Assembly: GCF_001375535.1 (NCBI RefSeq)
Contig: NZ_LN831197.1
Location: 4,027,823-4,091,822, forward strand
Direction of reading: 5' to 3'
Origin: Bacillus niameyensis
Lineage (GTDB): Bacteria; Bacillota; Bacilli; Bacillales; Bacillaceae_C
Length of the DNA: 64,000 nucleotides
Made by a program: the position numbers and the translations under genes. Within the stretch, counting starts at the first letter, position 1, and each line of letters opens with the position of its first letter. The notes under the pieces are model-generated. The model was not told the origin of the DNA, made no database searches, and saw nothing but the letters and a program-made list of their open reading frames with translations. This document shows, piece by piece, positions 19,049 to 59,170 of this stretch.

Positions 19049-19260
19049 AGAAAAGCGTAAGCGCCTGTTTAGCGGCGTACGAACTTTTGTAATAAGGATG
19101 AACGGCTAAAGACGCGCCGTCCTGGCGCAACGCCGTTCTGACCAACGTCCTGTTGGCCTGAGATAAAGGAAACACGATGAGCCCACAAGGCGAATCGATG
19201 TTGACTTATCGTAGGAAGAAGCTGAAAGTTCGCTAGCCGCTAGGCGCTGGAGCTAGACAA
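19049..19260 (+). repeat. Dispersed structured element, copy A (long form)
   Basis: About 210 bases starting GAAAAGCGTAAGCGCC. The ends form a stem in which GCGCC pairs with GGCGC and AGCGGC pairs with GCCGCT. An internal module has AACGGC/GCCGTT and GCGCC/GGCGC nested stems. Relatives occur at 25597, 42157, 49855 (minus) and 59040 (minus). Not coding. Confidence 0.88.
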
Positions 19261-19270
19261 GAAAAGCGTA

Positions 19271-19308
19271 AGCGGCCGTTCCATGGAAGTGGAACGGCCG
19301 CTTTTTTT
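19271..19308. terminator. Bidirectional terminator between rodA and the CPBP protease gene
   Basis: Perfect 12-bp GC-rich stem AGCGGCCGTTCC/GGAACGGCCGCT with an eight-base loop and a seven-T run. It abuts the stop codon of the convergent gene. Confidence 0.9.
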
Positions 19309-20218
19309 AAGAAGTAAAATTTGTTTCTGCATGATGTTGTTTCCTATTGTATAGCTTAGTAGCAAAGAAGCCGAGCAGAATGAAAACTGTAGCCATAATC
19401 CCACCTTCGAGGCCAAAGGCTCCACCCGTAAGAAGTGCATTGCCTTTTTCAATATCAATTTGGTAAAGACCATGTGGAGCTGTTCCACTAACAGCAAATC
19501 CGAAGACATTTCCTTGAAAGTAATTCCAAGTGATGTGATAGCCAATTGGCAACCATAAACTATTTGTTTTGATAAACATATAAGCGAATAGTAGTCCGAC
19601 AAAAACAATATTAATTAGTCCAATTACACTTACGTTTGGATTTGTGCCGTGAACGGCGCTAAATATGATCGCTGAAATAATGTAAATAACCCACTGTTTA
19701 TTCCCACGGGAAGCCATCACTTTCATAACATACCCGCGGAAAAATATTTCTTCGAAAAATCCGACAAGAATGAACATAATTAAGAAGCTAATTGTAAAGG
19801 CACTAAATTTAGGTTCAGATAAAGTGTTTAAAAGCTCAATATTTCCGGTTGCGAGTAAAAGAAGGAAAATCAATGTAATCGAGATTGCCCCTAGAAAAAG
19901 TCCAAAAAGGAGATCTTTTAAGCTACCTTGAAACCCTAGATCTTTAAGTGACTTTTTATTCAAATATTTCCAAAGTAAAAGAGTCGCAATAATTCCGCCA
20001 ACAGTTCCCCCACCTTGAGTGAGTAGCAAAATCCATGGGCGATTCCACAAAGCGGCTTCAAAATCAATCGTAATTGATCCAGATTGCCCTGTAAGTTCAA
20101 CTACCGCTAACATGATTGATCCTGGTATTTGAAAAAGAATTTGTCCCGCGAACATAGCAAGAAAGGCTAGAAGGATAATCCATCCCGATCGAATTTGATC
20201 GTTTTGATTTTTAAACAT
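19307..20218 (-). CDS. CPBP-family intramembrane metalloprotease
   Basis: A 303-residue polytopic membrane protein of the CAAX-protease/bacteriocin-processing (Abi) family. The diagnostic EEIFFRG motif (catalytic Glu pair, near residue 157) lies in a helix, followed by the FSAVHG histidine and the HITWN segment with the third metal ligand. Members process membrane peptides or confer bacteriocin immunity; the substrate here is unknown. It stands alone between the XRE gene pair and rodA. Confidence 0.88.
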   Translation of the reverse strand: MFKNQNDQIRSGWIILLAFLAMFAGQILFQIPGSIMLAVVELTGQSGSITIDFEAALWNRPWILLLTQGGGTVGGIIATLLLWKYLNKKSLKDLGFQGSLKDLLFGLFLGAISITLIFLLLLATGNIELLNTLSEPKFSAFTISFLIMFILVGFFEEIFFRGYVMKVMASRGNKQWVIYIISAIIFSAVHGTNPNVSVIGLINIVFVGLLFAYMFIKTNSLWLPIGYHITWNYFQGNVFGFAVSGTAPHGLYQIDIEKGNALLTGGAFGLEGGIMATVFILLGFFATKLYNRKQHHAETNFTS

Positions 20219-20321
20219 GTTTATTTCCCCGTTTCTTTAGTTAAAGTAAATTAGCGTATCGAAAAGCATTCGTAATATGGTTCTATTCTTGCATCGCCAA
20301 GTTTATTCTCAGACGAAAATA

Positions 20322-20786
20322 TTATATTTTTCGGATATTAACAAAGTAGGCAATGATTTGGATAACCGGGATGATTAAGACAACTAAAATCGGAAAATAA
20401 TGAAAATGTTCTTCAAACAACGGATAAAAGGCAAGCAACCCAGCAACAATGGGTGCTGATATCCAACAAGAAATAAAGGCTTTTCTGCAAGCTTCTCCGG
20501 AGATTTCCCGTTCACGCTCATCCCTTTCTGAAAATTGAAGAGGGAATAGCCAAATTGAAATTTTCTCACCTTTTTTCTTTTTCCGGCGATAAAGGAAAAA
20601 CATGATCAAGCTATATATAAGAAAGACGAAGATAGGTAGTACGTAAAAATTAATCTCCCATGGCGGAGTTGGATCCTTAATAATCTCTGCGAATTGAACA
20701 TACACATCATACATCGCTCCAAGTGCCCAACCCATTAAAGCTAGTGTAACTAAACTCAAAACCATTGAATAGATAGGTGTTTTCAT
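20322..20786 (-). CDS. Membrane protein paired with an XRE regulator
   Basis: A 154-residue protein with four predicted membrane helices (about residues 5-25, 48-66, 108-128 and 133-150). A basic, charged cytoplasmic loop lies in the middle (RRKKKKGEK and SERDEREREISGEA). The ATG at 20786 overlaps the upstream stop (TGATG), so it is translationally coupled to the small regulator. This arrangement is common in Firmicutes, where a DUF-type membrane protein accompanies a 70-residue Xre repressor. Function not known. Confidence 0.8.
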   Translation of the reverse strand: MKTPIYSMVLSLVTLALMGWALGAMYDVYVQFAEIIKDPTPPWEINFYVLPIFVFLIYSLIMFFLYRRKKKKGEKISIWLFPLQFSERDEREREISGEACRKAFISCWISAPIVAGLLAFYPLFEEHFHYFPILVVLIIPVIQIIAYFVNIRKI

Positions 20787-20998
20787 CACTTTTCCTCCTT
20801 TGCTTCAAGCCAAAATATTTCCTCCATAGGAAGATTAAATGTTTTGCAGATGGATAAACCAAGTAATAAAGATGGGACATAATCGCCTTTTTCGATAGCA
20901 GCAATCGTTTGACGAGTTACTCCAACCCGGTCCGCTAGATCTGTTTGCGAGTAATGGTAGCGAGCGCGCAGCTCCTTCACTCGGTTTTGGATGACCAC
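20786..20998 (-). CDS. Small Xre/Cro-family transcriptional regulator
   Basis: A 70-residue helix-turn-helix protein consisting almost only of the DNA-binding domain (YSQTDLADRVGVTRQTIAAIEKGDYVPSLLLGLSI). It starts with GTG at 20998, 11 bases after GGAGG. A near-perfect 20-bp palindrome sits just downstream of a good promoter on the same strand, which suggests autorepression. It is cotranscribed with the membrane protein that follows. Confidence 0.9.
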   Translation of the reverse strand: MVIQNRVKELRARYHYSQTDLADRVGVTRQTIAAIEKGDYVPSLLLGLSICKTFNLPMEEIFWLEAKEEK

Positions 20999-21014
20999 AT
21001 AATGTTCCTCCTTT

Positions 21015-21034
21015 ATGTCAAGTTAACTTAACAT
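21015..21034 (-). promoter_or_regulatory. Palindromic operator of the Xre gene pair
   Basis: ATGTCAAGTTAACTTAACAT is a 20-bp palindrome with a single mismatched pair, centred on AAGTTAACTT. It covers the expected transcription start of the promoter at 21037-21065, an ideal site for autorepression by the adjacent Xre protein. Confidence 0.65.
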
Positions 21035-21036
21035 AT

Positions 21037-21065
21037 ATTGTATAGTGTATTAAACAAAATGTAAA
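21037..21065 (-). promoter_or_regulatory. Sigma-A-type promoter of the Xre gene pair
   Basis: On the minus strand, TTTACA (-35, 21060-21065) and TACAAT (-10, 21037-21042) are separated by 17 bases, upstream of the GTG start of the regulator. Confidence 0.65.
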
Positions 21066-21134
21066 GTATATTTAACATTAAATATAAAGAAAAGGAGCAG
21101 CCTGCATGATGGCCGCTCTACTTCAAGATCTTGA

Positions 21135-21491
21135 TTATTGAATTGTTCCTTGATATGGGAATTGATTCATATATCCTGAGTGCTGTTGATATGATTGTTG
21201 GATCTTTTGCGCGCTTTCAGCTTCTAGCTTGTACCAGCCCTTTTGGAACATAAGATCAAACAACTCGTGTTGCATATTTTGTGTTTCATTGAAGATCCCT
21301 AACAAATCGTTATAGAGATGTTGATGACTCGCTTCATTAAGTGCCACAGAATAAGCATTTGTCATATATTTCTCCGTCGATAGTATATCATTAACAAAAT
21401 CTCGTTCATTCATTTGCGGAGTTTTCGGAACTTGTGTACTTGGGTTTTGAATCTTGTTTTGATTCTGATTTTGCATATTAGAATTTTGCAT
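21135..21491 (-). CDS. CotF-like spore coat protein
   Basis: A 118-residue protein with an Asn/Gln-rich N-terminus (residues 1-25), then a helical CotF-type domain (ERDFVNDILSTEKYMTNAYSVALNEASHQHLYNDLL). Proteins of this kind are ferritin-like helical bundles in the Bacillus spore coat. It is the second of two related genes immediately upstream of and divergent from fadN; in B. subtilis a spore-coat gene of this type (yusN) sits at the same position. Strong ribosome site. Confidence 0.82.
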   Translation of the reverse strand: MQNSNMQNQNQNKIQNPSTQVPKTPQMNERDFVNDILSTEKYMTNAYSVALNEASHQHLYNDLLGIFNETQNMQHELFDLMFQKGWYKLEAESAQKIQQSYQQHSGYMNQFPYQGTIQ

Positions 21492-21506
21492 TTTCCGGCT
21501 CCTCTC

Positions 21507-21776
21507 TTATTGAGTAATGGAATTATTGAATTGTTTTTCTTCTAAGTGAGCTAAAATCTTCATATAATGACGTTGGTGCATTTGCCCACATGCATCAAGC
21601 TTATTTTTTAGCTGCTGATCCTGACATTGAGATGCTGCGTGATGAGCTTTTTTCATTGCAAGCAAATTCCATGCAAGCATATCATTAATGTAGGAAAAGT
21701 CCTTGGTAGTAATGACGTGAGGCGGCTGTGGCATGACTGGTTGTTGATTTTGCTGATTCATTGGTTGATTTTGCAT
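21507..21776 (-). CDS. Small CotF-like spore protein
   Basis: An 89-residue relative of the next gene: a Gln/Pro-rich leader, then a short helical hairpin (YINDMLAWNLLAMKKAHHAASQCQDQQLKNKLDACGQMHQRHY). It probably occurs in the spore coat. It precedes the other CotF-like gene by 15 bases, in the same operon. Expected to be under a sporulation sigma factor, but I cannot point to a clear promoter. Confidence 0.78.
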   Translation of the reverse strand: MQNQPMNQQNQQPVMPQPPHVITTKDFSYINDMLAWNLLAMKKAHHAASQCQDQQLKNKLDACGQMHQRHYMKILAHLEEKQFNNSITQ

Positions 21777-21987
21777 AATATTACCTCCTTTACTAGTTAC
21801 AAAGTTAGTTTGGCTTGGCGTTAGGTTTTTATGTATCGCTTTACTTTTGGCAAACGTATTGTTCTCACTGCCTTTCCGAAAATGGGGAATTTTAAATATT
21901 TTCTAATTGCAAGTTAAGAAAAAGTTGGATATATTTATAGTATCTACAGTAGTCATTAAATTTAGAGAAATTTTTTTGCGTAAAAAA

Positions 21988-22005
21988 TGAATGACTATTC
22001 ATTCA
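21988..22005 (+). promoter_or_regulatory. FadR operator
   Basis: TGAATGACTATTCATTCA matches the known Bacillus FadR consensus (TGAATGAMTANTCATTCA) at every position. It lies 20 bases upstream of the fadN start. FadR represses beta-oxidation genes and is released by long-chain acyl-CoA. Confidence 0.93.
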
Positions 22006-22025
22006 AAAGGTGAGGAGGAATTTTT

Positions 22026-24398
22026 TTGACACTTCAGATTAAAAAGGCTGCTGTCATTGGCTCAGGTGTTATGGGTTCAGGAATTGCGGCACATTTAGCT
22101 AATGTAGGGATTCCAGTTTTGTTAATGGACATAGTCCCTAACGAAACAAATGCTGAAGAGAAGGAAAAGGGACTGACGACTAAGGATAGAGAAGTCCGCA
22201 ATAGATTGGCAAATAATGCCTTAAGAAAATTATTAAAAGAAAAGCCAGCTCCATTAACACATAAAAGCCACCTATCCCTCATCACTCCAGGCAATATGGA
22301 AGATGATCTAGAACAATTACGAGAAGTAGACTGGATCATTGAAGTTGTCGTAGAAAATTTGCAAATTAAAAAGCAGATTTTTGAAAAGATTGACCACTAT
22401 CGCCGAAAACATAGCATTGTTAGTTCGAATACTTCAGGAATTTCTGTCGAATCAATGGCAGAAGGCCGTTCTGAAAACTTCCAGAAACACTTCTTAGGAA
22501 CTCATTTTTTTAACCCACCACGTTATTTAAAACTACTTGAGATCATTCCAACAACAAAGACAGAACCTAAAGTACTAAGTTTTATGAAAAAGTTTGGCGA
22601 AGATATCCTTGGTAAAGGAGTTGTCATCGCAAAAGATACACCGAATTTTATTGCCAATCGAATAGGAACTTATGGACTTCTTGTTACTGTGCGAGAAATG
22701 CTCGCAGGGGACTTTAGCATCGGAGAAATCGATTCTATTACTGGCACGCTCATTGGCAGGCCAAAAAGTGCAACGTTTCGGACATTGGATATTGTAGGGC
22801 TTGATACATTCATTCACGTCGCAAATAATGTCTATGCCCAAGTAGATGGAGCTGAAAAACAGGTCTTCGATGTACCAGATTTTATGAGTAAAATGCACGA
22901 GAACGGATTGCTAGGCAGTAAAACTGGAAAAGGATTTTATTGGAAAAAGGGAAAGGAAATTTTGGAATTAAATCCGAAGTCATTTGACTATGAACCGAGA
23001 AAGAAATTAACAACACCTGGCATTGAGATGGCAAAGCAAACTAAAGGGGCAGGACAAAAACTAAAAGCCCTTTTATATTCTGGTGATCGCGCAGGGGAAT
23101 TACTATGGAAGATCACTGCTCCTGTTCTCGCAATTTCAGCGGAACTGCTTGGAGAAATCGCGGATACGGTTGTTTCGATCGACAATGCGATGAAATGGGG
23201 CTTCGGCTGGAAAATGGGGCCGTTTGAGATGTGGGATGCAATCGGTCTTGAAAAATCTGTTCAGAAAATGAAAGCAGAAGGAATTCGGTTACCTGTATGG
23301 ATCGATGAAATGCTTGAAAAAGGGCATACTTCGTTTTACAAAGAAGAAAGCTTTTATTCTGATGGCGAATATAAATCAATTGAAAGAAATCTAAAAGAAA
23401 TTGATTTACGATTGTTGAAGAAGCAAGGAAAGATTGTTAAGAAAAATAGCGGAGCCAACTTAATTGATATTGGAGATGAGGTTCTGTTACTTGAATTTCA
23501 ATCTCCGAATAATGCAATTGGTTTTGATATTATCCAAATGATTAACAGTGCAATCGATGAGGTGGAAAAAAATTATAAAGGTCTTGTGATTGCTAATCAA
23601 GGGAAAAATTTCTGTGTCGGTGCCAATCTAGCTATGATTTTAATGGCTGCACAGGATGATGATATGTTTGAGATAGATCTTGTTGTTCGCAAGTTTCAAG
23701 AAGCAATGATGCGCATTAAGTATAGTGAAAAGCCAGTAGTAGTAGCTCCATTTGCAATGACACTTGGAGGAGGAGCAGAAGTCAGTTTACCTGCAGCACA
23801 TATTCAAGCTTCTATGGAAACGTATATTGGGCTTGTTGAGACGGGGGTTGGACTAATACCAGGTGGCGGCGGAAATAAAGAATTATATTTGAAAGTATTA
23901 AGAAACATGGCAAAAGGAATTGAATTTGATTTACAGAAAGTCGCAAATCAAGTATTCGAAACGATCGCACTTGCAAAAGTATCTACGTCGGCGGAGGAAG
24001 CTGTAGAAAATCATTTTCTTGATCGCAATGATGGCATTAGCGTGAATGGGGATCACTTAATATTTGACGCAAAGCAAGCAGTTCTTACTTTGCATCGACG
24101 TGGCTATAAACCACCTGCACGAGAAAAGATTCCCGTTGTCGGTGAAACAGGGTATGCAACATTGTTAATTGGTGCGGAAGGAATGCGTTTATCAGGCTAT
24201 ATATCTGAACACGACATGAAAATTGCCAAAAAGCTTGCTTATGTCATTGCTGGGGGAAGTGTCCCATATGGAACAGAAGTAGATGAACAATACTTATTGG
24301 ATTTGGAAAGAGAAGCATTTTTAAGCTTAGTCATGGAGCCAAAGTCGCAAGCTAGAATGCAACATATGCTCGTGAAAGGAAAACCACTTCGAAATTAG
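22026..24398 (+). CDS. fadN: 3-hydroxyacyl-CoA dehydrogenase / enoyl-CoA hydratase FadN
   Basis: A 790-residue bifunctional enzyme for two middle steps of fatty-acid beta-oxidation. The N-terminal NAD-binding fold has GSGVMGSGIAAHLAN near residues 12-26 and the HFFNPPRYLKLLEIIP catalytic segment, then a C-terminal dehydrogenase domain. The C-terminal half is crotonase-like (NFCVGANLAMILMAAQ, LGGGAEVSLPAAHIQ, GLIPGGGGNKEL). It starts with TTG at 22026, eight bases after GAGGAGG. First gene of fadN-fadA-fadE, under the FadR operator. Confidence 0.95.
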   Translation: MTLQIKKAAVIGSGVMGSGIAAHLANVGIPVLLMDIVPNETNAEEKEKGLTTKDREVRNRLANNALRKLLKEKPAPLTHKSHLSLITPGNMEDDLEQLREVDWIIEVVVENLQIKKQIFEKIDHYRRKHSIVSSNTSGISVESMAEGRSENFQKHFLGTHFFNPPRYLKLLEIIPTTKTEPKVLSFMKKFGEDILGKGVVIAKDTPNFIANRIGTYGLLVTVREMLAGDFSIGEIDSITGTLIGRPKSATFRTLDIVGLDTFIHVANNVYAQVDGAEKQVFDVPDFMSKMHENGLLGSKTGKGFYWKKGKEILELNPKSFDYEPRKKLTTPGIEMAKQTKGAGQKLKALLYSGDRAGELLWKITAPVLAISAELLGEIADTVVSIDNAMKWGFGWKMGPFEMWDAIGLEKSVQKMKAEGIRLPVWIDEMLEKGHTSFYKEESFYSDGEYKSIERNLKEIDLRLLKKQGKIVKKNSGANLIDIGDEVLLLEFQSPNNAIGFDIIQMINSAIDEVEKNYKGLVIANQGKNFCVGANLAMILMAAQDDDMFEIDLVVRKFQEAMMRIKYSEKPVVVAPFAMTLGGGAEVSLPAAHIQASMETYIGLVETGVGLIPGGGGNKELYLKVLRNMAKGIEFDLQKVANQVFETIALAKVSTSAEEAVENHFLDRNDGISVNGDHLIFDAKQAVLTLHRRGYKPPAREKIPVVGETGYATLLIGAEGMRLSGYISEHDMKIAKKLAYVIAGGSVPYGTEVDEQYLLDLEREAFLSLVMEPKSQARMQHMLVKGKPLRN

Positions 24399-24419
24399 AA
24401 AACTATGAGGAGGAATTTC

Positions 24420-25596: not shown

Positions 25597-25745
25597 TAGA
25601 AAAGCGTAATCGCCTGTTTAGCGACGAACAAACTTTTTAAGCTTCCGACGAGATAAAGGAAACACGGCGAGGAACGAGCCGATGTTGACTTATCGTAGGA
25701 GGAAGCTGAAAGTTTGCAAGTCGCTAGGCGATGGAGCTGGACCAA
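25597..25745 (+). repeat. Dispersed structured element, copy B (short form)
   Basis: A short-form copy between fadA and fadE, inside an otherwise tight operon. The outer stem is TCGCC/GGCGA here, differing from copy A (GCGCC/GGCGC) by a matched change. It ends about 14 bases before the fadE start and so would be transcribed in the fad mRNA. Confidence 0.85.
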
Positions 25746-37561: not shown

Positions 37562-37825
37562 GAATATATAACCTTATCAATATCGGATGAGGTAGAGGTG
37601 CAAAAAAAATCAGTAACATGTGTAAGGATGACAACGATGATCACATGTGAAAGGTTTTTTTGCCGAAGCTGAAGTTGCGTCAATCAATTTCATGCTGGTG
37701 TTGCTTTGAAGAAGAGTAACACTCTCATTTTTGCAGTTTTTTTGCAAAAAATGGGGAGCTACAGATCACGATGGAGATACCTTTACAAGAGTAATGGTAG
37801 TCCTCTATCATTGCTCTTTTTGTTT
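37562..37825 (+). ncRNA. Lysine riboswitch (L box) with terminator
   Basis: Conserved L-box blocks appear in order: GATGAGGTAGAGGTGC (37586-37601), a P2/P3 region with ACATGTG/CACATGT pairing, GAAAGG then GCCGAAG (near 37660), the GCTGG block (near 37693), and the 3' GGGGAGCTA block. It ends in a terminator at 37789-37822, where GAGTAATGGTAG pairs with CTATCATTGCTC and then TTTTT follows. High lysine should favour termination. The presumed target lies 640 bases further on, across a tandem array. Confidence 0.88.
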
Positions 37826-37880
37826 TGTCAAAAATGACTGCACTTGGACGGGGGCTCCCAAGAAAGTTTTGAAAAATATG

Positions 37881-38380
37881 AGCGAGAATCGTGATAAATG
37901 AGCGAGAATCATGATATATGAGCAAGAATCATGATATATGAGCAAGAATCGTGATATATGAGCGAGAATCGTGATAAATGAGCGCGAATCGCGATAAATG
38001 AGCGAGAATCGCGATAAATGAGCAAGAATCGTGATAAATGAGCGAGGATCGTGATATATGAGCGCGAATCGCGATATATGAGCAAGGATCGTGATATATG
38101 AGCAAGGATCGTGATATATGAGCGAGAATCGTGATATATGAGCAAGAATCGTGATATATGAGCAAGAATCGTGATAAATGAGCGAGAATCGTGATATATG
38201 AGCAAGAATCGTGATAAATGAGCGAGGATCGCGATATATGAGTAAGGATCGTGATATATGAGCAAGAATCGTGATAAATGAGCGAGGATCGCGCTATATG
38301 AGCGCGAATCGCGATGTATGAGCAAGAATCGCGCTATATGAGCGAGAATCGTGATAAATGAGCGCGAATCGCGATAAATG
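37881..38380. repeat. Tandem array of 25 units of 20 bp
   Basis: Twenty-five contiguous 20-bp units of the form AGCGAGAATCGTGATATATG fill exactly 500 bases, with a degenerate unit after. Variation is concentrated at a few positions: AGCGAG/AGCAAG/AGCGCG, ATCGTGAT/ATCGCGAT/ATCATGAT and ATATG/AAATG. The ATCxxGAT core is palindromic or nearly so in each unit. There are no spacers, so this is not CRISPR. Long minus-strand open frames across it are by-products of the repeat. Confidence 0.95.
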
Positions 38381-38467
38381 AGCGAACTTCGAAATGTACG
38401 CCCGAAATTTCGAAATCCTAAGTATATGCTTAAAATTAGGAAAAGACTTTTCAAAAGGAGAATTATT

Positions 38468-40051
38468 ATGGAGCATTCAATTTTATCTATTCTGCCGCCG
38501 ATTCTGGCGATTGTGATGGTTATTCTAACAAAAAGAGTCCTCTTATCACTCGGAACGGGGGTTGTTGCATCAGCATTACTATTAGCAAAGGGACAACCTA
38601 TTGAGACATTAGCGATTTTATGGGAAGCGATCAAGGGAATTGTAATTGATGACGGTAGCCTAAATACGTGGAACCTTTATATTGTTCTTTTCCTGTTTTT
38701 ATTAGGTGCTATTACTTCTTTAATTAATATGGCTGGAGGAAGTAGAGCATTCGGTGAATGGGCAATGACGAAGGTTAAAAGTAGAGCAGGGGCACAATTA
38801 CTGGCAGTTGCTTTAGGAATCATTATTTTTATTGATGATTATTTTAATGCATTAGCTGTTGGCCAAGTGGCAAGACCGATAACAGATCGACATAGAGTAT
38901 CGCGAGCCAAGCTAGCCTATATTATTGATTCAACATCTGCACCTATATGTGTTATTTCTCCGATATCGAGCTGGGGAGCTTATATTATTGGAATTGTAGG
39001 GCTCGTTTTGATCAATCACGGTTTAACCGATATTTCCCCATTTACAGCATTTATGGAAATGATTCCAATGAACCTATATGTGTGGACAACACTTGCTTTT
39101 GTTATAATCATTTCATTTCGTAAAGTTGATTTTGGTTCTATGAAAAAGCATGAGGATCGAACAATCGAAACGGGTGTACCTTATGATCCTAATAAAGTCA
39201 TTCCGGGTGAAGTAAAAGAAAACTTACCTGTTAGTGAAAGTGGGACAGTTGGCGATTTATTATGGCCTATTGTTGCATTATTCGTTGGGACAATTGGTGC
39301 GATCATTATTAGTGGTGTAAATGCGACGAAAGGGAAAGCAACAATCATGGATATCTTTGGAAATGCAGATGTTGCACTTTCATTGATTATTGGTGGTTTT
39401 ATTGCGCTCGCAGTAGCTGCAAGTTTATTCCTTGTTCAAGCAAAAAAATCTAAATTACTAAAAGGAACTTTATTTTTTAAAGGGTTAAAAGTTGGAGTTC
39501 AATCCATGTTGCCAGCTGTATTAATTTTGTTGTTTGCATGGACAATTATTACTCTTATTGATCAATTAGGAACGGGGATTTATCTCGGCAATGTGGTGGA
39601 ACAATCGAATTTAAATCCAGCTTTTCTGCCGGTTATCTTATTTTTAGGTGCAGCGGGTATGGCTTTTGCTACTGGAACCTCTTGGGGATCGTTTGGAATT
39701 TTATTACCGATCGCTGGCCAAATCATTTCGGCAACCGATATATCGTTACTTTTACCAGGGCTTGCTGCAGTTTTAGCAGGTGCCGTGATGGGGGATCATT
39801 GTTCTCCAATTTCAGATACGACGATTTTGTCTTCAACTGGTGCAGGCTGTAACCATATGGACCATGTTATGACTCAGCTTCCTTATGCACTGATGGCAGG
39901 ATTGTTCTCAGCGATCGGTTATCTCATTATGGGAATAACAAGCTCGGTAATCTTTGGCTTACTAACAATTGCACTTTTATTAATACTCTTTTTTACCTGG
40001 CTTGAGCTTCGCAATAAGGCTGTAGTGAAAAATCAAGAGGAGTTTCGGTGA
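38468..40051 (+). CDS. lysW: Predicted lysine transporter LysW (NhaC superfamily)
   Basis: A 527-residue protein with about 12 membrane helices in the NhaC Na+/H+ antiporter superfamily. Signature segments are FIDDYFNALAVGQVARPITD, STSAPICVISPISSWGAYI and GDHCSPISDTTILSSTGAGC. Genes of this family under lysine riboswitches have been predicted as the lysine importer LysW, and the upstream L box supports that. Start ATG 38468 after AAAGGAG; the longer frame runs into the tandem array. In B. subtilis no such gene lies between yunB and lytH. Confidence 0.82.
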   Translation: MEHSILSILPPILAIVMVILTKRVLLSLGTGVVASALLLAKGQPIETLAILWEAIKGIVIDDGSLNTWNLYIVLFLFLLGAITSLINMAGGSRAFGEWAMTKVKSRAGAQLLAVALGIIIFIDDYFNALAVGQVARPITDRHRVSRAKLAYIIDSTSAPICVISPISSWGAYIIGIVGLVLINHGLTDISPFTAFMEMIPMNLYVWTTLAFVIIISFRKVDFGSMKKHEDRTIETGVPYDPNKVIPGEVKENLPVSESGTVGDLLWPIVALFVGTIGAIIISGVNATKGKATIMDIFGNADVALSLIIGGFIALAVAASLFLVQAKKSKLLKGTLFFKGLKVGVQSMLPAVLILLFAWTIITLIDQLGTGIYLGNVVEQSNLNPAFLPVILFLGAAGMAFATGTSWGSFGILLPIAGQIISATDISLLLPGLAAVLAGAVMGDHCSPISDTTILSSTGAGCNHMDHVMTQLPYALMAGLFSAIGYLIMGITSSVIFGLLTIALLLILFFTWLELRNKAVVKNQEEFR

Positions 40052-42156: not shown

Positions 42157-42302
42157 AAAAGCGGAAGGCAGCGTTTAGCGACGTACGAACTTTTTAAGCT
42201 TCTGACGAGATAAAGGAAACACGGCGAAGAATGAGCCGATGTTGACTTATCGTAGGAAGAAGCTGAAAGTTCGCTAGTCGCTGCTGCCTGAAGCTAGCCA
42301 TA
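42157..42302 (+). repeat. Dispersed structured element, copy C1 (short form)
   Basis: First of three adjacent copies after yutD. The outer stem is GGCAGC/GCTGCC with inner AGCGAC/GTCGCT, then GAACTTT/AAAGTTC, AAGCTT/AAGCT and GATAA/TTATC. The whole element can fold as one long imperfect hairpin. Confidence 0.9.
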
Positions 42303-42506
42303 AAAAAGCGGAAGGCAGCGTTTAGCGACGTACGAACTTTGTTATAAGGATGAACGGCTAAAAACGCGCCGTCCTGGCGCAACGCCGTTCTGACCAACAT
42401 CCTGTTGGCCTGAGATAAAGGAAACACGGCGAAGAATGAGCCGATGTTGACTTATCGTAGGAAGAAGCTGAAAGTTCGCTAGTCGCTGCTGCCTGAAGCT
42501 GGCCAT
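42303..42506 (+). repeat. Dispersed structured element, copy C2 (long form)
   Basis: Nearly identical to C1, but with a module of about 60 bases inserted after GAACTTT. That module has stems AAGGATG/CATCCTG, AACGGC/GCCGTT and GCGCC/GGCGC nested around a small loop. The outer stem is again GGCAGC/GCTGCC. Confidence 0.9.
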
Positions 42507-42620
42507 AAAAAAGCGGAAGTCAGCGTTTAGCGACGTACGAACTTTTGTTATAAGGATGAACGGCTAAAAACGCGCCGTCCTGGCGCAACGCCGTTCTGAC
42601 CAACATCCTGTTGGCCTGAT
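42507..42620 (+). repeat. Dispersed structured element, copy C3 (truncated)
   Basis: The left end and the complete long-form module are present, but it stops at GGCCTGAT and lacks the GATAAAGG to right-end half. Truncated exactly where the terminator of the next gene begins. Confidence 0.88.
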
Positions 42621-43521: not shown

Positions 43522-44289
43522 TTGAAAAATTATCAAGGTTATCTGATTGATCTCGATGGTACGATGTATCGAGGAACGGAAAAAATCGAAGAAGCATTAA
43601 CATTTGTAGAACGATTAAAAAGGAAAAACATCCCTTATTTATTTGTGACGAATAATTCATCAAAGCGCCCAGAACAATTTGCCGAGCATTTACAAAGCTT
43701 TGGTCTAGAAACAAAGGCTGAAGAGGTTTTTACAACATCGATGGCAACAGCCAATTTTTTAGTTGAAAAACAGCCAGGAGCAAGTGTGTATGTAATTGGG
43801 GGAGAGGGAGTTCGTTCAGCCCTTTCAGAAAAAGGCTTCACAATAGTCGATGAAGAAAAAGCGGATGCGGTTGTCATCGGACTTGATCGAGAAATTAATT
43901 ACGAGAAATTAGCGAAAGCTTGCTTGGCAGTAAGGAATGGAGCAACTTTTATTTCTACCAATGGCGATATCGCTTTGCCTTCTGAAAGAGGATTACTCCC
44001 AGGAAATGGCTCTCTCACATCGGTTATCTCTGTATCCACTCAAGTGGAACCAATTTTTATAGGAAAACCACATTCGATTATTGTGGAACAAGCCTTGGCA
44101 GAGCTCGGGACATCTAAGGCGGAAACATTAATGGTTGGAGATAATTACGACACAGATATTATGGCGGGAATTAATGCTGGTCTAGATACATTGCTCGTTC
44201 ATACGGGTGTTACGACGAAAGAAATATTAAGTTTAAAAGAAGTACAGCCAACTTATGTATTGGATACATTGGCGGATTGGGATGTGTGA
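43522..44289 (+). CDS. yutF: HAD-family phosphatase YutF (NagD-like)
   Basis: A 255-residue HAD-superfamily (NagD/AraL, C2 cap) phosphatase. Motif I is YLIDLDGTMYRG with nucleophile Asp, motif II TNNSSKRP, and motif IV GDNYDTDIMAGINAG. It probably hydrolyses small phosphate esters such as nucleotides or sugar phosphates. It starts with TTG at 43522 after AAAGGAG; the frame overlapping yutE has no ribosome site. Confidence 0.92.
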   Translation: MKNYQGYLIDLDGTMYRGTEKIEEALTFVERLKRKNIPYLFVTNNSSKRPEQFAEHLQSFGLETKAEEVFTTSMATANFLVEKQPGASVYVIGGEGVRSALSEKGFTIVDEEKADAVVIGLDREINYEKLAKACLAVRNGATFISTNGDIALPSERGLLPGNGSLTSVISVSTQVEPIFIGKPHSIIVEQALAELGTSKAETLMVGDNYDTDIMAGINAGLDTLLVHTGVTTKEILSLKEVQPTYVLDTLADWDV

Positions 44290-44294
44290 AGGTA

Positions 44295-44326
44295 AGGGCT
44301 ATCTCTGAAAGGGGGTAGCTCTTTTT
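44295..44326 (+). terminator. Terminator after yutF
   Basis: AGGGCTATC pairs with GGGTAGCTCT (wobbles allowed) and is followed by TTTTT. Confidence 0.7.
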
Positions 44327-44367
44327 ATTGGGCTTCAAAGGGGAGGGGATTCATCCATCTTAATGGA

Positions 44368-45130
44368 GGGAAATACCAATTAACCGTCGAATAGACCGCC
44401 CCAATTCATCCGAAGAAAAGGAAATACACGTCAAAGGTCGAAAAGATCGCCCCAATTCGCCTGAAGAAAAGGAAATACACTTCAAAGGTCGAAAAGATCG
44501 CCCCAATTCGCCCGAAGAAAAGGAAATACACGTCAACGGTCGAAAAGATCGCCCCAATTCATCCGAAGAAAAGGAAATACACGTCAAAGGTCGAATAGAC
44601 CGCCCCAATTCATCCGAAGAAAAGGAAATACTCGTCAATGGTCGAATAGATCGCCCCAATTCACCCGAAGAAAAGGAAATACCGATCAACGGTCGAATAG
44701 ACCGCCCCAATTCACCCGAAGAAAAGGAAATACACGTCAAAGGTCGAATAGACCGCCCCAATTCACCCAAAGAAAAGGAAATACACGTCAACGGTCGAAT
44801 AGACCGCCCCAATTCACCCGAAGAAAAGGAAATACACGTCAACGGTCGAATAGATCGCCCCAATTCACCCGAAGAAAAGGAAATACTCGTCAACGGTCGA
44901 ATAGATCGCCCCAATTCACCCGAAGAAAAGGAAATACACGTCAATGGTCGAATAGATCGCCCCAATTCGCCCGAAGAAAAGGAAATACTCGTCAACGGTC
45001 GAATAGACCGCCCCAATTCACCCAAAGAAAAGGAAATACACGTCAATGGTCGAATAGATCGCCCCAATTCACCCGAAGAAAAGGAAATACACGTCAATGG
45101 TCGAATAGACCGCATCAACGGTCGAATAGG
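44368..45130. repeat. Tandem array of 14 full 51-bp units plus partial ends
   Basis: Fourteen 51-bp units, plus a partial one at each end, lie between yutF and the convergent yutG. The unit contains GGTCGAATAGACC (arms GGTC/GACC), GCCCCAATTC and GAAGAAAAGGAAATAC. Variants alternate at a few sites (ATAG/AAAG, GACC/GATC, CACCCG/CATCCG/CGCCCG, CACGTC/CTCGTC). Because 51 is divisible by three, long open frames exist on both strands, but neither has a credible start and ribosome site. Confidence 0.95.
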
Positions 45131-45210
45131 GACGTTCTTTTCCAAATAAATAAGCGCATGTTCACTAGAAATTATTGTTAAAATTCCCCAAGCCCACAAT
45201 TTTAATAGCG

Positions 45211-45711
45211 TTATTGCTCTCCCTTTGCACTGTGCGCCAGTCTGCTTGATGCTGCGGCGGCAATTGCACCGACGATATCATCTAAAAAGGTGTGACATTC
45301 ACCAGTTGTGTGGTCATTTAATCTTTTTAGAATGCCTGGCTTTTGCTTATCAATATATCCGTAGTTCGTAAAACCAATCGATCCATATACATTAACGATG
45401 GAAAAAGCGAGGATTTCATCTACACCATAAAGACTTTCGTCATCAGCAATTATCGATTGGAGCGGTTCAGCCAATTTACCTTGTTCAGCCAATACGTCTA
45501 ATTGAATACCAGTTAAAATTGCATTTTGTACTTCTCTTTTTTGAAGAACGCGCTCAATATTATAAATACAATCCTCCATTTGCAGATTGGGATGATACTT
45601 ATTTTGCAAATACATGACAAGCTCACCTATATCTTCAATGGTTACGCCACGTTCTTTAAGAAGGCGGCGGGCTGTTTCTTCTGTTTTACTTATAATTCTT
45701 TTTTCTTCCAT
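45211..45711 (-). CDS. yutG: Phosphatidylglycerophosphatase A-like protein YutG
   Basis: A 166-residue protein of the PgpA/YutG family. Key segments are YGVDEILAFSIVNVYGSIGFTNYGY and the C-terminal HTFLDDIVGAIAAAASSRLAHS; the acidic cluster is expected to bind metal. In this Gram-positive branch the membrane helices of PgpA are lacking, so the substrate is uncertain. Transcribed toward the 51-bp array. Confidence 0.88.
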   Translation of the reverse strand: MEEKRIISKTEETARRLLKERGVTIEDIGELVMYLQNKYHPNLQMEDCIYNIERVLQKREVQNAILTGIQLDVLAEQGKLAEPLQSIIADDESLYGVDEILAFSIVNVYGSIGFTNYGYIDKQKPGILKRLNDHTTGECHTFLDDIVGAIAAAASSRLAHSAKGEQ

Positions 45712-49790: not shown

Positions 49791-49828
49791 AAAGGGTTGA
49801 ACCTGATTTTGGGGTTCAACCCTTTTGT
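49791..49828 (+). terminator. Terminator after yutM
   Basis: Perfect 13-bp stem AAAGGGTTGAACC/GGTTCAACCCTTT with a nine-base loop and TTTTGTTT. Confidence 0.88.
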
Positions 49829-49854
49829 TTATACGTCGCAAAACGTCGTATTGC

Positions 49855-50008
49855 GCTTTTCTGTGTCTAGCTTCAGACGACAGCGCCTAGCAAACTTTCG
49901 GTTTCATCCTACGATAAGTCAACATCGGCTCATTCTTCGCCGTATTTCCTATATCTCGTCAGAATCCTAGAAAGTTTGTACGTCGCTAAACGTCGTCTTG
50001 CGCTTTTC
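49855..50008 (-). repeat. Dispersed structured element, copy D (minus strand, short form)
   Basis: Reading on the minus strand, the element starts AAAAGCGCAAGACGACGTTTAGCGAC and its outer stem is GACGAC/GTCGTC, a third independent stem sequence. It lies right after the yumC stop codon. Confidence 0.88.
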
Positions 50009-52607: not shown

Positions 52608-52646
52608 AAGGGTAGAACTGTAGATCTATAGTTCTGCCTTTTTCTT
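52608..52646 (+). terminator. Terminator after yumB
   Basis: AAGGGTAGAACT pairs with AGTTCTGCCTT (one bulge) around a ten-base loop, followed by TTTCTTTT. Confidence 0.8.
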
Positions 52647-53189: not shown

Positions 53190-53191
53190 AG

Positions 53192-53230
53192 AAAAAAATC
53201 TTTATCTTTTAAAAAGATAAGGATTTTTTG
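53192..53230 (+). terminator. Terminator after yuiB
   Basis: AAAAAATCTTTATCTTTT pairs with AAAAGATAAGGATTTTTT (one wobble), ending in a T run. Confidence 0.82.
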
Positions 53231-53278
53231 TTTTTAATACATAGAATATTGAAATGGATTTGAAAGGATGAGCAGCTA

Positions 53279-53749
53279 GTGAGAATTCGGGAAACGAATG
53301 ATTATGTTATAATTGCAAAGTTAAATAAAGGAGTACACGAATTACACGAAAAGCTTTACCCTGAATATTTCAAACCATATAATTTTGAAGATATGCTGGA
53401 ATATTTCAAGGAAATCGTTTATTTTCCCGATTTCATTTTCTTAGTACTGGAAGAAGAAGAAAAACCAATTGGATATGCGTGGATTGAAATTAGAAATTAC
53501 ATGGAAAATGCTTTAATCAAGGCTAATCAAGCTATCTATGTCCATCAGATTAACATTGAAGAGGATCATCGTAATAACGGATATGGCGGCCATTTAATGG
53601 ATGCCATCATTGAAATGGCCAAGTCGAAAGACATTCATAGGGTTGAGTTAGATTATTGGTTTGATAATGAAGTGGCGAAGAAATTTTATGAAAAGCTAGG
53701 ATTTAAAAAATATCGGGAATTTGTTTATAAGAATTTATCTGGTGACTAA
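53279..53749 (+). CDS. GNAT-family N-acetyltransferase
   Basis: A 156-residue acetyltransferase. The acetyl-CoA binding motif A appears as INIEEDHRNNGYGGHLMDAIIEMA, and motif B as FYEKLGFKKYREF near the C-terminus. Starts with GTG at 53279 after AAGGATGAG. Substrate unknown. First gene of a block inserted between yuiB and yuiC relative to B. subtilis. Confidence 0.87.
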   Translation: MRIRETNDYVIIAKLNKGVHELHEKLYPEYFKPYNFEDMLEYFKEIVYFPDFIFLVLEEEEKPIGYAWIEIRNYMENALIKANQAIYVHQINIEEDHRNNGYGGHLMDAIIEMAKSKDIHRVELDYWFDNEVAKKFYEKLGFKKYREFVYKNLSGD

Positions 53750-53792
53750 CCATTTGAAAGAACATACCGGGTTCGGCAGGGAAATTGTTCCG

Positions 53793-53860
53793 ATGTCACG
53801 AATCCGCCTCTCATGGCGGATTCGACATGGAAACTCGCTCCGAAGTGTTATGAGACTTGC
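53793..53860. repeat. Short hairpin repeat family 2, copy between GNAT and DUF418 genes
   Basis: Perfect stem CGAATCCGCC/GGCGGATTCG (53799-53824), extended by ATGTC/GACAT. Next to it is a degraded GAAGTGTTATGAG arm like those at 27597 and 60841. Probably a terminator for convergent genes. Confidence 0.6.
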
Positions 53861-53891
53861 TATTGTCCGCCTTCCAACATAGAAAAACTCT

Positions 53892-55094: not shown

Positions 55095-55249
55095 CCGTCA
55101 TCCCCCATTTATTGTTCATTCTAGTTAATTAGTATACGGACTTAAGTTGAACGGTGAGAAAACGAAACCTTACGAAAACCTTAATTTTACATATAATCCA
55201 TTCATCTCCTGTTAAGTTTTGTGTGCTACTATTAATTTGGGTGAGGAGA

Positions 55250-55954
55250 ATGAAAAATGCCAAAATTTTATTAGTCGATGATGAAATTTCAATTTTACAG
55301 ATGGTCGAAATGGTTTTGAAAAAAGAGGGATTTACAAACGTGTTAAAAGCATCTACTGGGAAAGAAGCAATAGAAATCGTAAAAAGAGAGCCTGTTGACT
55401 ATATCATCCTCGATGTGATGCTTCCGGATATTAATGGCTTCGATTTGTGTGAAAAAATACGTGAGTATACGGATGTCCATATCTTATTTTTAACTGCTAG
55501 AATTACTGATTTTGATGTTTTAACTGGCTTTGAAAAAGGAGGGGATGACTATGTTACTAAACCATTTAATCCTCTTGAAATTGTTGCAAGAATCAAGGTG
55601 CAATTGCGCAGAAGCCGAAAAACAGAATCGGTTCCAAAAGTAAATTTAAAAAGGCATGATTTCGGTCATTTCCTTGTCGATGAGGAAGCTGGAGACTTAA
55701 TAGTTGAAGGAAAACTGGTTGCATGTCCGGCTCAAGTTTTTTTACTACTAGTCTATTTTTGCCAAAATGTGAATCGCGTGCTATCCAAGGAGCAGTTATT
55801 TAATGCAGTATGGGGATATGATCATTTGATAGATGACAATACCGTAATGGTGCATATTCGAAGGATTCGTGAGCGAATTGAGCCAGACCCGGGGAAACCG
55901 GTATTTCTTCAAACTGTACGAGGATTAGGCTATAAATTGGTAAAGGAAGCATAG
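55250..55954 (+). CDS. OmpR-family response regulator
   Basis: About 234 residues. The receiver domain has acidic pocket Asp 10/Asp 11, phospho-acceptor Asp 55 (YIILDVMLPDINGF) and conserved Lys in YVTKPFNP. The C-terminal winged helix ends with DNTVMVHIRRIRERIEPDPG and VRGLGYKL. The ATG at 55250 is very close to GAGGAG; a GTG at 55241 is an alternative. It is cotranscribed with the sensor kinase two bases later. Confidence 0.92.
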   Translation: MKNAKILLVDDEISILQMVEMVLKKEGFTNVLKASTGKEAIEIVKREPVDYIILDVMLPDINGFDLCEKIREYTDVHILFLTARITDFDVLTGFEKGGDDYVTKPFNPLEIVARIKVQLRRSRKTESVPKVNLKRHDFGHFLVDEEAGDLIVEGKLVACPAQVFLLLVYFCQNVNRVLSKEQLFNAVWGYDHLIDDNTVMVHIRRIRERIEPDPGKPVFLQTVRGLGYKLVKEA

Positions 55955-55956
55955 TT

Positions 55957-57687
55957 ATGAAATTACAGAGAAGAATCGCCCTTCATTTTTCTTTTCAATT
56001 TATCATTTTACTCTTGTTTACTTTTTTATTTCTTATTTTATTGCTCGTATTTCTAGCTAATCTAGTTTCAAAAGTGGAGTTAAATTATAAAACTGTTGAT
56101 GGTTTAATGGATACGATTACGACTGTGACGGTTATTGAAAAAAACAAAGTTACATTAGAAGATAAATGGGTGCAACAATTGAAAGAAAATGATATATGGA
56201 TGCAGATCGTTGATAAGGAAGGAAAAGTGATATATTCCGCGAATGATCACTCAGCGCTCCAGCAATCGTATACTACTCATGAACTGCTTCTAATCGATGA
56301 AACGAAGAAACTTGACAATTACACGGTTAGAACCTTTTTTGATACATGGCTGTATGGGAATTATTACTTTTTATTCGGCTTTCAAGATCATGAGAAGGAA
56401 CTGCTGACAGAATGGTTCCACTTATATAGTGAAAATGGACGTGTAAAACAGGAGAATCTTTCCTTATTAGAAAATAAATTACGCTCAATAGATGGTTCGA
56501 TTCAAGTATTTCAGGAAGAGAAGCTGATTCAAACGATAGGAAAAACGAAAAACGAAAATTATGAGCCACTAGATTTATTAACCCGATTGTATGAACCGGG
56601 AAGATATTCCACCAGAGTTAGTGTATTCAATGATCAACCAACAGACACAACATGGGCACTGCATTTTCCGGGAAAGGAAGGTCAAAAAACTGGATGGCTT
56701 ATTCCTTCTAGAGAAACTCAAATCATTTTAATCGCCGTTGGTACGAGCTTAATAGTAGCTATTTTATTCTCTATTTGGAATGGCTATCGGTATGGTCAAC
56801 CGCTAATACTACTAGTGAACTGGCTAGAACGAATGGGAAAAGAACAATACGATGAAGTATTTACGGAAAAAGAGCGGAAGAAAGTATTTAAGAAAAAGGG
56901 TAAAACACGTCATCGTTATCGGTTATATGAAGAGGTAATTCAATCCTTTTACAGTATGACGAAAAAGTTGGATAAGGCTCAACAAGAGCGGAAACGTCTT
57001 GAGCAAACTCGTGAAGAATGGATGGCGGGTATTTCTCATGATCTGCGCACCCCGCTTTCAACAATCCAAGGATATGGTCATTTGTTAGAAAGTAATAAGT
57101 ATCCATTCACTCCAGAGGAATTACAAGAAATTGGTAAGGTTGTGCGTGAAAAAGGGGATTATATGGTTCAACTAGTGAACGACTTTTCCCTTGTTTTTCA
57201 ATTGAAAAATAGTGCTATTCAATTAGAGAAACAATCGATTGATTTAAATGAATTTGTTCGTAGTACTGTATTGAAGTTTGAAAGAGATTTAACATTAAGA
57301 GCTGTGTCTTTTTCATTTACACAATCGTCCTCTGTAACCGAAGTTGCAATTGATCCAAAATGGTTTGTTAGAGTTCTCGATAATATTATGTATAACGCTG
57401 TAAAACATAACCCTTCCGGTACACAAATTGATGTTGCTGTAATACAAGAAAAAGAAGATGCCTTAATTCAAATCCGTGATAATGGTCAAGGAATGGATGA
57501 GGAATATATCGAAAATCTTTTTGAAAGATATTATCGCGGGACAAGTACGAGTGAAAGAGCGGAGGGAGCTGGCCTCGGGATGAGTATTGCGAAGGCGATT
57601 ATTGAATTGCATGATGGCAGGATTCAAGTACATTCCTCAGTTGGTAAAGGAACAACCGTTGTTCTTATACTTCCACTCCTTGAATAG
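55957..57687 (+). CDS. Sensor histidine kinase
   Basis: A 576-residue membrane kinase. TM1 is about residues 14-36, an extracellular sensor region of about 210 residues follows, and TM2 is about 247-270. A HAMP-like linker precedes the dimerisation domain with His 361 (ISHDLRTPLSTIQGYGHL). The ATPase domain has the N box (NIMYNAVKHN), G1 (DNGQGMDEEY) and G2 (GAGLGMSIAKAI). The signal is unknown. Partner of the response regulator upstream; part of the block inserted in the yui cluster. Confidence 0.92.
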   Translation: MKLQRRIALHFSFQFIILLLFTFLFLILLLVFLANLVSKVELNYKTVDGLMDTITTVTVIEKNKVTLEDKWVQQLKENDIWMQIVDKEGKVIYSANDHSALQQSYTTHELLLIDETKKLDNYTVRTFFDTWLYGNYYFLFGFQDHEKELLTEWFHLYSENGRVKQENLSLLENKLRSIDGSIQVFQEEKLIQTIGKTKNENYEPLDLLTRLYEPGRYSTRVSVFNDQPTDTTWALHFPGKEGQKTGWLIPSRETQIILIAVGTSLIVAILFSIWNGYRYGQPLILLVNWLERMGKEQYDEVFTEKERKKVFKKKGKTRHRYRLYEEVIQSFYSMTKKLDKAQQERKRLEQTREEWMAGISHDLRTPLSTIQGYGHLLESNKYPFTPEELQEIGKVVREKGDYMVQLVNDFSLVFQLKNSAIQLEKQSIDLNEFVRSTVLKFERDLTLRAVSFSFTQSSSVTEVAIDPKWFVRVLDNIMYNAVKHNPSGTQIDVAVIQEKEDALIQIRDNGQGMDEEYIENLFERYYRGTSTSERAEGAGLGMSIAKAIIELHDGRIQVHSSVGKGTTVVLILPLLE

Positions 57688-57762
57688 AATGAACTTTTCT
57701 GAAAACGGTGTGTATACTTCCTCTTAATCTGGGCAAACTGGATGTTTGAGAGGAGCGTATAT

Positions 57763-58410
57763 ATGTTCAATCTAAAAAAAGTTGCAAAAAGAACCTTTAT
57801 GGTAGTGTTGTTTATTTTAGCTTTAGTCACCACGGTCGAATACATAACAGGTATTGAAGTAAAGGCAATGGTTACATGGGCAAATTCAGGGCAAGGGGGA
57901 TACTTTTTACCAGACAATCGGATCAGAACAGACACGAAAGCAGAAGTAGCAGAAAATTATGATCTAGAGAGTAAAGAAGACTGGTCAAAGTATCCGAGCA
58001 AGAAAGTGACAGCAACAGGATACACAGCTGGGGTTGAATCAACAGGAAAGAAACCCGGTCATCCCCAATATGGTATTACTTTTTCAGGTGTAAAAGTAAA
58101 GAGAGATATATATTCAACAATTGCAGCAGATCCTAACGTCTTTCCGATCGGGACTATATTGTTTATTCCGGAATATGGTTATGGAGTCGTTGCAGATACA
58201 GGATCGAAAATTAAAGGAAATAAAATCGATTTATATTATGAAACCGTTGAAGACGTTTATAACGAGTGGGGCAAAAAAGATGTGGAAGTTTATATCATTC
58301 AAGAAGGCGACGGTAAATTAACGGAAGAAGTTATGAACGATTTGAATGAAGATGAGGCCATTCAAGTGTTTCGCCAAAATTTCCTGAAAAAAAATAAAAG
58401 TAAAGAGTAA
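57763..58410 (+). CDS. yuiC: 3D-domain cell-wall protein YuiC
   Basis: About 215 residues with an N-terminal signal or anchor helix (residues 8-28) and a C-terminal 3D domain. Three conserved Asp lie in [27 protein letters not shown] and the preceding AADP region. 3D domains occur in lytic transglycosylases such as MltA and Sps proteins, so a peptidoglycan-cleaving role is likely. The ATG at 57763 follows GAGAGGAG. Confidence 0.88.
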
Positions 58411-58420
58411 GCTGAATAAA

Positions 58421-58465
58421 AAGAAGGCATCCATAGTCAAAGTTCGACTTGTTGGATGCCTTTAT
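58421..58465. terminator. Bidirectional terminator between yuiC and yuiD
   Basis: AAGGCATCCA/TGGATGCCTT forms a perfect 10-bp stem with additional inner AGTC/GACT pairing. A and T runs flank it on both sides. Confidence 0.85.
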
Positions 58466-58956
58466 TATATTAGCTCAAAAGCAGTATAAATGATAATCGA
58501 CCAAACAATACCTGTTAAACATCCGAAGAACACCTCAGCTGGTTTATGTCCAAGCAATTCCTTTAGCATCGTAAATTCTTCCTGTTTTTGCTTTTGATCT
58601 CGTCCTTGCCATGCGTGAAAATCAGTTATCATTCTTTGAAAATCTCCGCGCAACCTATTTAGGACAGCAGCATGTTCACCAGCCTGCCTGCGAACTCCAG
58701 TTGCATCGTACATGACAATACCAGCAAAGACGGCGGAAATAGCAAAGAAGATAGAATCAAGCCCTGTCTCCATGGCGACACTCGTTGTGAGAGCGGTTAC
58801 CCCTGCGGAATGAGAACTCGGCATTCCCCCTGTAGAAGTAAGCAACTTCCAGTCTAATTTTTTTGTCATAATAAATTGTAGTGGAACTTTTACAAACTGG
58901 GCGAAAAAGATGGCGGAGACCGCAATCCAAAGTGGATAATTATATAGGAGACTCAT
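58465..58956 (-). CDS. yuiD: Divergent PAP2-family membrane protein YuiD
   Basis: A 163-residue membrane protein of the DUF212/divergent PAP2 group. The phosphatase-like GGMPSSHSAGVTALTT and YDATGVRRQAGEHA motifs are present. It is predicted to act on a lipid or isoprenoid phosphate, but activity is not established. Position between yuiC and pepA matches B. subtilis. Confidence 0.9.
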   Translation of the reverse strand: MSLLYNYPLWIAVSAIFFAQFVKVPLQFIMTKKLDWKLLTSTGGMPSSHSAGVTALTTSVAMETGLDSIFFAISAVFAGIVMYDATGVRRQAGEHAAVLNRLRGDFQRMITDFHAWQGRDQKQKQEEFTMLKELLGHKPAEVFFGCLTGIVWSIIIYTAFELI

Positions 58957-59039
58957 AATTGACTAACATCCTTTCTCGGTTGTTTAAGAAGTTATAAAAT
59001 TAGAGGATATGTGTAGCTTAAACAATGTGTATATTCGTC

Positions 59040-59170
59040 CAGTTCCAGAGAATAAAGACTAGCAAGCTTTTACGCAGCTTCCTACGATGAAGTCGATATC
59101 GGCTTATTCTTCGCCGTTCATCCTTAACATAGAAGTTTGTACGTCGATGAGCAATGCGCTTGCACTTTTG
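59040..59170 (-). repeat. Dispersed structured element, copy E (minus strand, degenerate)
   Basis: Recognisable blocks on the minus strand: AAAAGTGCAAGCGCATTG, CGACGTACAAACTT, GGATGAACGGCGAAGAATAAG, TCGTAGGAAGCTGCGTAAAAG and TCTGGAAC. The interior is shortened and the outer stem is damaged, so this is an old copy. Confidence 0.7.

Follow-up and report, generated by a model that had tools for sequence, protein, structure and literature searches.

Hairpin repeats of Bacillus niameyensis as probable non-autonomous relatives of IS91-type rolling-circle elements

What are the short hairpin repeats scattered between the genes of Bacillus niameyensis, and what has moved them? The question is raised by a 64,000-nt stretch of its genome (contig NZ_LN831197.1, positions 4,027,823 to 4,091,822 of the forward strand; hereafter the window), in which an earlier note, made from the sequence alone, had described a dispersed intergenic element with compensatory changes in its outer stem and had taken it for either a structured RNA or a single-stranded DNA mobile element. 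The repeats form a real, covarying and mobile family, and are best read as a variant of the known IS91-type (HUH) rolling-circle elements: probably non-autonomous, with a structured hairpin as their body. Two classes of terminal sequence are common to the elements and to autonomous IS91-family transposons.

The conserved unit extends from AAAAGCGNAAG to GCTAGACA and occurs as a short form of ~145 nt and a long form of 200-210 nt. The seven copies that the earlier note had named A, B, C1, C2, C3, D and E were all found where it had placed them, with C3 truncated and E decayed, and a short partial copy is also present after copy A. Copies A, C and D each lie between a stop codon and a terminator. 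The copies in the window are as follows:

19051..19259, + strand: copy A, long form; flank AAAG (19047-19050); the upstream stop codon ends 2 nt before
25600..25743, + strand: copy B, short form; flank ATAG; orthologous site empty in all 15 genus relatives
42157..42300, + strand: copy C1, short form; unit 1 of a tandem array, starting immediately after the stop codon TAA
42304..42505, + strand: copy C2, long form; unit 2 of the C array
42509..42619, + strand: copy C3; unit 3 of the C array, breaking off just past its Bacillaceae-1 module
49864..50007, - strand: copy D, short form; flank TAAG; the upstream stop codon ends 1 nt before
49827..49860, - strand: partial 5' end of a second unit (34 nt), directly after D
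59036..59169, - strand: copy E, decayed; flank GAAC

The two copies that were folded, C1 and C2, are both far more stable as + strand than their dinucleotide shuffles (z = -7.8 and -6.0), and C1 forms one long hairpin of -65.4 kcal/mol. The outer-stem pairs GCGCC/GGCGC, TCGCC/GGCGA, GGCAGC/GCTGCC and GACGAC/GTCGTC were all read in the sequence, and the claim that both arms change together held well beyond them: in the 28 short copies of the B. niameyensis genome without a gap in the outer stem, 90.5% of cells are paired, compared with a mean of 56.6% and a maximum of 0.720 over 500 shuffles of the arms. Eighteen of these copies have a fully paired outer stem, built from 12 different arm pairs, and the set holds 18 distinct 5' arms; the other 10 are incompletely paired, some of them resembling chimeras of two stem classes (e.g. 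GTCGGC + GGGCAC). Pairing in the middle and inner helices likewise exceeded all 500 shuffles. Across 115 distinct short forms from several genomes, most pairs are maintained through several Watson-Crick types, and the inner helix in places hardly varies; the cells comprise 3883 Watson-Crick, 184 G-T, 26 A-C and 139 other combinations, figures that do not count independent events, the copies being related by descent. One constant pair accounts for 111 of the 184 G-T cells, leaving 73 G-T against 26 A-C. This excess of G-T over A-C indicates that pairing takes place on the + strand, which fits RNA and single-stranded DNA alike. Two other readings were set aside by eye: the stems around CTGACGAG...GAAAC do not fit a hammerhead, and the core motif of attC sites does not fit the repeat.

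The mobile half of the earlier proposal is borne out by dispersal, empty sites, the absence of target duplication above control and, as shown below, terminal sequences shared with IS91-family transposons. Empty orthologous sites were found in two comparisons. Between the two genes that border copy B, the element is missing from all 15 genus relatives, several of which (L234, L242, L243) have longer spacers of other sequence there. Within a pair of related species (G002 and G012, 92.7% identical across one 4.2-kb locus), the orthologous place of seven G002 element sites was located in G012 in every case, and was empty in six and occupied in one (L270/L350). The B. niameyensis genome itself has seven 16S ribosomal RNA (rRNA) 3' ends, of which six are followed by a spacer with an element and one (L257) is not. 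No excess of target duplication was detected among 46 tailed copies (mean match 3.67, control 3.46), and the listed hairpin ends of short copies revealed no duplication of fixed length. The repeats are mobile DNA.

They are also abundant and widespread. The B. niameyensis genome yields 122 BLAST matches to C1 and 104 matches to the Rfam family RF01690 (Bacillaceae-1), which corresponds to a module of the long form discussed below. An element is present in all 16 genus genomes searched, that of B. niameyensis included, and the matches listed for the core pattern include records under the names Siminovitchia, Lederbergia, Neobacillus, Rossellomorea, Mesobacillus and others; neither the exact pattern nor blastn searches with C2 matched any phage, plasmid or viral contig. 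Tandem arrays such as that of the C copies reach considerable length elsewhere in the same genome, with ~20 units of 363 bp (short + long) at C6:2805232-2812643 and ~10 units of 206 bp at 523595-525766, in both cases with equal scores throughout. In most arrays read, unit 1 is short and later units are long (exceptions are L077 and one array of L079), and the linkers between units are variable. At L039, L064, L121, L170, L189, L202 and other loci, elements with these ends and a likewise variable outer stem have a different core, GCGACAAGCAAATGTTC-hairpin-GGTTATTTGACCTCGAG.

The identity of the probable mover comes from the ends. Many copies, mainly outside the B. niameyensis genome, run beyond GCTAGAC into a tail of ~50 nt. 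A first tail, TTATCCACA-N6-16-TTTATAATTTCCT, was matched 54 times, in 11 of 34 family genomes, and a reversed control pattern not at all. Among 30 first-tail loci, an element lies upstream in 23 (13 by the core pattern, 10 by eye), a transposase gene lies there instead in two (L296, L302), neither is present in L291, and the contig ends in four. A wider stretch around L296, designated L318, contains a complete 1.6-kb element composed of GAAC and AAAAGCGCTAACGCGC, a gene for a 410-aa transposase, and the first tail; the protein belongs to the IS91-family equivalog NF033538 (E 8e-87) and carries the Pfam domains Y2_Tnp and Zn_Tnp_IS91. An order-level search of 397 genomes with this transposase returned 10 matches at E < 1e-100 in seven genomes, and both ends were present, 1.5-1.6 kb apart, at seven of 14 IS91 loci (L318, L335, L337, L338 and L340-L342, in four genomes). 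The first tail often contains TTATCCACA (e.g. L040, L187 and L202, and in the autonomous L318 and L337); this sequence equals the DnaA-box consensus, and a link to replication is possible.

A second class of ends was recognized at L327 in G012, a more distant IS91-type element that lies directly after TATAAG; its protein, with the Y2_Tnp domain PF04986 and 34% identity to the L318 protein, is encoded between TAAG followed by AAAA on one side and GCCAAAATTTTATACTTTCTTATC on the other. The latter defines a second tail class, and five of six element copies tried matched it with at most four differences. The two tails were then compared with the flanking tetranucleotides in 221 first copies, taken from 259 elements by setting aside 38 with a preceding unit; the 221 include one false element, at window positions 63419-63626, that a scan for ends and stem had returned. 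The first tail was assigned to 36 copies and the second to 25, six fit both equally, and none was recognized in 154. Most tailed first copies have a GAAC-like or xAAG-like flank: those with the first tail have xAAC in 27 cases, AAG/TAG in three and others in six, the corresponding numbers for the second tail being two, 20 and three. Tail class is therefore tied to 5' tetranucleotide class (GAAC-like or TAAG-like), with a Fisher p of 2.7e-9 for the four main cells (omitting the nine other flanks, the six undecided and the 154 tail-less copies) that is approximate because the copies are related. If each of two IS91 types moved its own set of elements, such an association would be expected.

These observations suggest a model in which the 5' end of the repeat (a GAAC or TAAG-like tetranucleotide, AAAAGCGNAAG and the outer stem) would be the counterpart of the origin in an autonomous transposon of the IS91 family, and the 3' tail, recognized in a minority of copies, that of its terminator end. 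A transposase provided in trans, at present or formerly, would nick at the tetranucleotide, whose classes match those of the tail; the ends of the elements are shared with two IS91-type transposons. The + strand would then be displaced as single-stranded DNA by rolling-circle replication, fold into the long hairpin that is conserved among copies, and insert without target duplication; insertion is lineage-specific, and duplication does not rise above control. Where the tail is absent or goes unrecognized, replication would continue to the next tetranucleotide-like site, producing tandem arrays with partial last units. The DNA hairpin would be what selection acts on. The copies in B. niameyensis may be relics, or tail-less units moved as one-ended products.

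Several observations weigh against this model. Its weakest point is the mismatch of the tetranucleotide at empty sites: of six such sites, one (L347) has exactly the sequence that flanks the occupied copy, which is one base off in L348 and absent in L349, L351, L352 and L353, which means that the tetranucleotide may come with the element, unlike the IS91 rule. One of these pairs, L102/L348, can be read as a target duplication of 4-7 bp. The origin end of the autonomous transposons is unlike the hairpin past the tetranucleotide and ~10 nt; three of the 14 IS91 loci have the tail only (L326, L330, L336) and three have neither end class (L328, L334, L339). The second autonomous class consists of L327 alone, with its origin end located by eye. 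Tails went unrecognized in 154 of 221 first copies overall and in 42 of 50 in the B. niameyensis genome, where protein and Pfam searches found no IS91 transposase; PF04986 is absent from 13 of the 16 genus genomes, that of B. niameyensis among them. Current activity in this host is consequently doubtful.

Could the repeat instead be a functional RNA? The reading closest to the earlier structured-RNA proposal is an element of 3' untranslated regions that stabilizes or processes mRNA, as REP or BOX sequences might, with selection at the RNA level and mobility secondary. It draws on the location of A, C and D between stop codon and terminator, on the near-invariant parts of the inner helix, on the + strand preference for G-T over A-C, and on position: 15 of 47 first copies of the B. 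niameyensis genome start within 7 nt past a sense stop codon, compared with 58 of 697 control sites (Fisher p 1.1e-5; open frames of at least 80 codons, controls being window intergenic sites with the same tetranucleotides under the same criterion, and the false element excluded). TAA is a stop codon, and TAAG as a target would therefore explain part of the raw excess, but the controls were already matched for such sites; what remains may reflect selection against other positions, or a role as RNA. Single-stranded DNA explains the strand bias equally well, insertions differ between related species, and the ends match those of transposons, so that we regard a primary RNA function as rather doubtful. 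The compensatory changes themselves might have arisen by mutation and not by selection, through template switching between the arms of the quasi-palindrome or recombination between tandem units, and arrays do contain copies whose two arms belong to different stem classes. Yet the middle and inner helices also stay paired through varied pairs, and a preference for G-T over A-C is not expected of arm-templated correction alone; a mutational origin is unlikely.

Two other kinds of mover would account for part of the data. Hairpin ends and the lack of target duplication above control would suit an IS200/IS605-type (Y1) element, and one intact Y1 transposase is present in the genome (L258); the tails, however, were found adjoining IS91 transposases, making this origin very unlikely. 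A miniature inverted-repeat transposable element moved by a cut-and-paste DDE transposase could explain the high copy number and the short, imperfect terminal inverted repeats (AGCGNAAG and the complement of CTGNAGCT), but target duplication is not in excess in the 46 copies, array linkers vary, and the ends match IS91-type elements; we consider it highly improbable. An IS91-type mover remains the preferred reading.

How does the long form differ from the short one? The earlier note had seen in long forms a further module with nested stems and had known no named family for the element. The module is indeed present, and it is a named family, RF01690 (74-75 bits, cut-off 35); the core and the ends have no such match. 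In the C array, an Rfam scan returned nothing besides RF01690 above cut-off, and a lax threshold gave sub-cut-off matches only. The Bacillaceae-1 modules of the window are:

19090..19156, + strand: Bacillaceae-1 in copy A (RF01690, 74 bits)
42342..42408, + strand: Bacillaceae-1 in C2 (RF01690, 74.8 bits)
42548..42614, + strand: Bacillaceae-1 in C3 (RF01690, 74.8 bits)

The module is not confined to the repeat. Of 54 RF01690 matches examined in the B. niameyensis genome (30 + 24 from two sets that overlap in at least one place), 34 are situated within an element and 20 elsewhere: six in a GTGGGGG-type palindromic repeat, five inside a GACTCCTG/GCGGGATC repeat, five beside 5S rRNA and four directly after 16S rRNA. 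In the rRNA operons (L086, L087, L088, L089, L253, L255), the module stands 5 nt before 5S in five copies, with 23S visible on the far side in four of these; the others have it directly after 16S. A relative of the GACTCCTG repeat with no interruption was found once, in another species. At the occupied orthologous pair L270/L350, the G012 copy carries Bacillaceae-1 antisense to the element and the G002 copy is without it. Bacillaceae-1 is itself interrupted, a few bases past its TCCTG loop, by a second, related two-hairpin module at three loci (L202, L215, L311). With several repeat hosts, both orientations and one orthologous pair that differs, Bacillaceae-1 looks like an insertable module. 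A broader proposal, which we put forward tentatively and at somewhat less than even chances, is that Bacillaceae-1 is primarily a mobile hairpin module and not a small RNA, and that both it and the two-hairpin module can enter structured sites of other mobile repeats, in either orientation and also close behind a TCCTG loop of each other, as self-nesting single-strand hairpin elements, some of them then spread by IS91-type transposons.

Other roles have been suggested for this family. RF01690 is counted among the abundant bacterial small RNA families in one report (PMC9029176), and another proposes a CsrA-sponge role for the reverse complement of Bacillaceae-1 (PMC4333381). The modules of the rRNA operons have the sense of the rRNA, i.e. 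the strand opposite to the proposed sponge strand. Pair counts in 23 distinct Bacillaceae-1 copies (G-T 1, A-C 4) lean weakly the opposite way to the rRNA-sense strand.

The window also contains a lysine riboswitch (RF00168, 114 bits) at 37585-37769, a tandem array of 20-bp period at 37756-38515, and a tandem array of 51-bp period at 44216-45229 that overlaps an open reading frame at 44360-45199.

Among the matches listed in open-licence literature (titles and the starts of abstracts), neither this family nor a mobile Bacillaceae-1 was recognized. If the reading proposed here is true, a repeat found in 16 of 16 genus genomes can be identified and assigned a probable mover, and the annotation of RF01690 changes, since many of its copies belong to mobile repeats. 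The outer stem, with its covarying arms, would moreover supply natural variants with which to test whether the hairpin is maintained by HUH transposition or by RNA function.

Comparison with known systems sets the family apart in several ways. Bacillaceae-1 corresponds to only one insertable part, which short forms lack and which also occurs in other repeats and in rRNA operons. Like REP, ERIC, BOX and bcr1, as portrayed in PMC3733652, the elements are intergenic, palindromic and often adjoin genes; they differ in their ends, a distinction drawn from descriptions and not from sequences. In that same paper, GTAG REPs are tied to Y1 transposases. B. halodurans has two repeat families, Bhal-1 and Bhal-2 (74 and 76 bp), which may coincide in part with the elements here, judging from their description in PMC2267715 and not from sequence. 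The closest likeness is to the IS91 family (IS91, IS801, ISCR), with which the elements share GAAC or xAAG at the origin end, the absence of target duplication above control, common origin and tail ends, and partial and tandem products. IS801, an IS91 relative, yields miniature one-ended products, uses GAAC, GGAC, CAAG and CGAC, and has a transposase that acts in trans; its miniature fragments, according to PMC3189936, are end fragments of the transposon itself, unlike the elements here. The elements also differ from the IS91 family in being gene-less, in having a body filled by a conserved hairpin of ~145 nt, in reaching ~100 matches in one genome, and in that their tetranucleotide is mostly missing from empty sites.

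Helitrons are the eukaryotic relatives of IS91, and the repeats, if the reading is true, would be a bacterial counterpart of their non-autonomous forms, open to study in easily grown bacteria. Those forms are likewise high-copy and gene-less, are thought to rely on a rolling-circle transposase in trans, and capture foreign DNA (PMC4778049). The elements described here differ in being bacterial and far shorter, and in that the hairpin makes up their body and not their terminus only.

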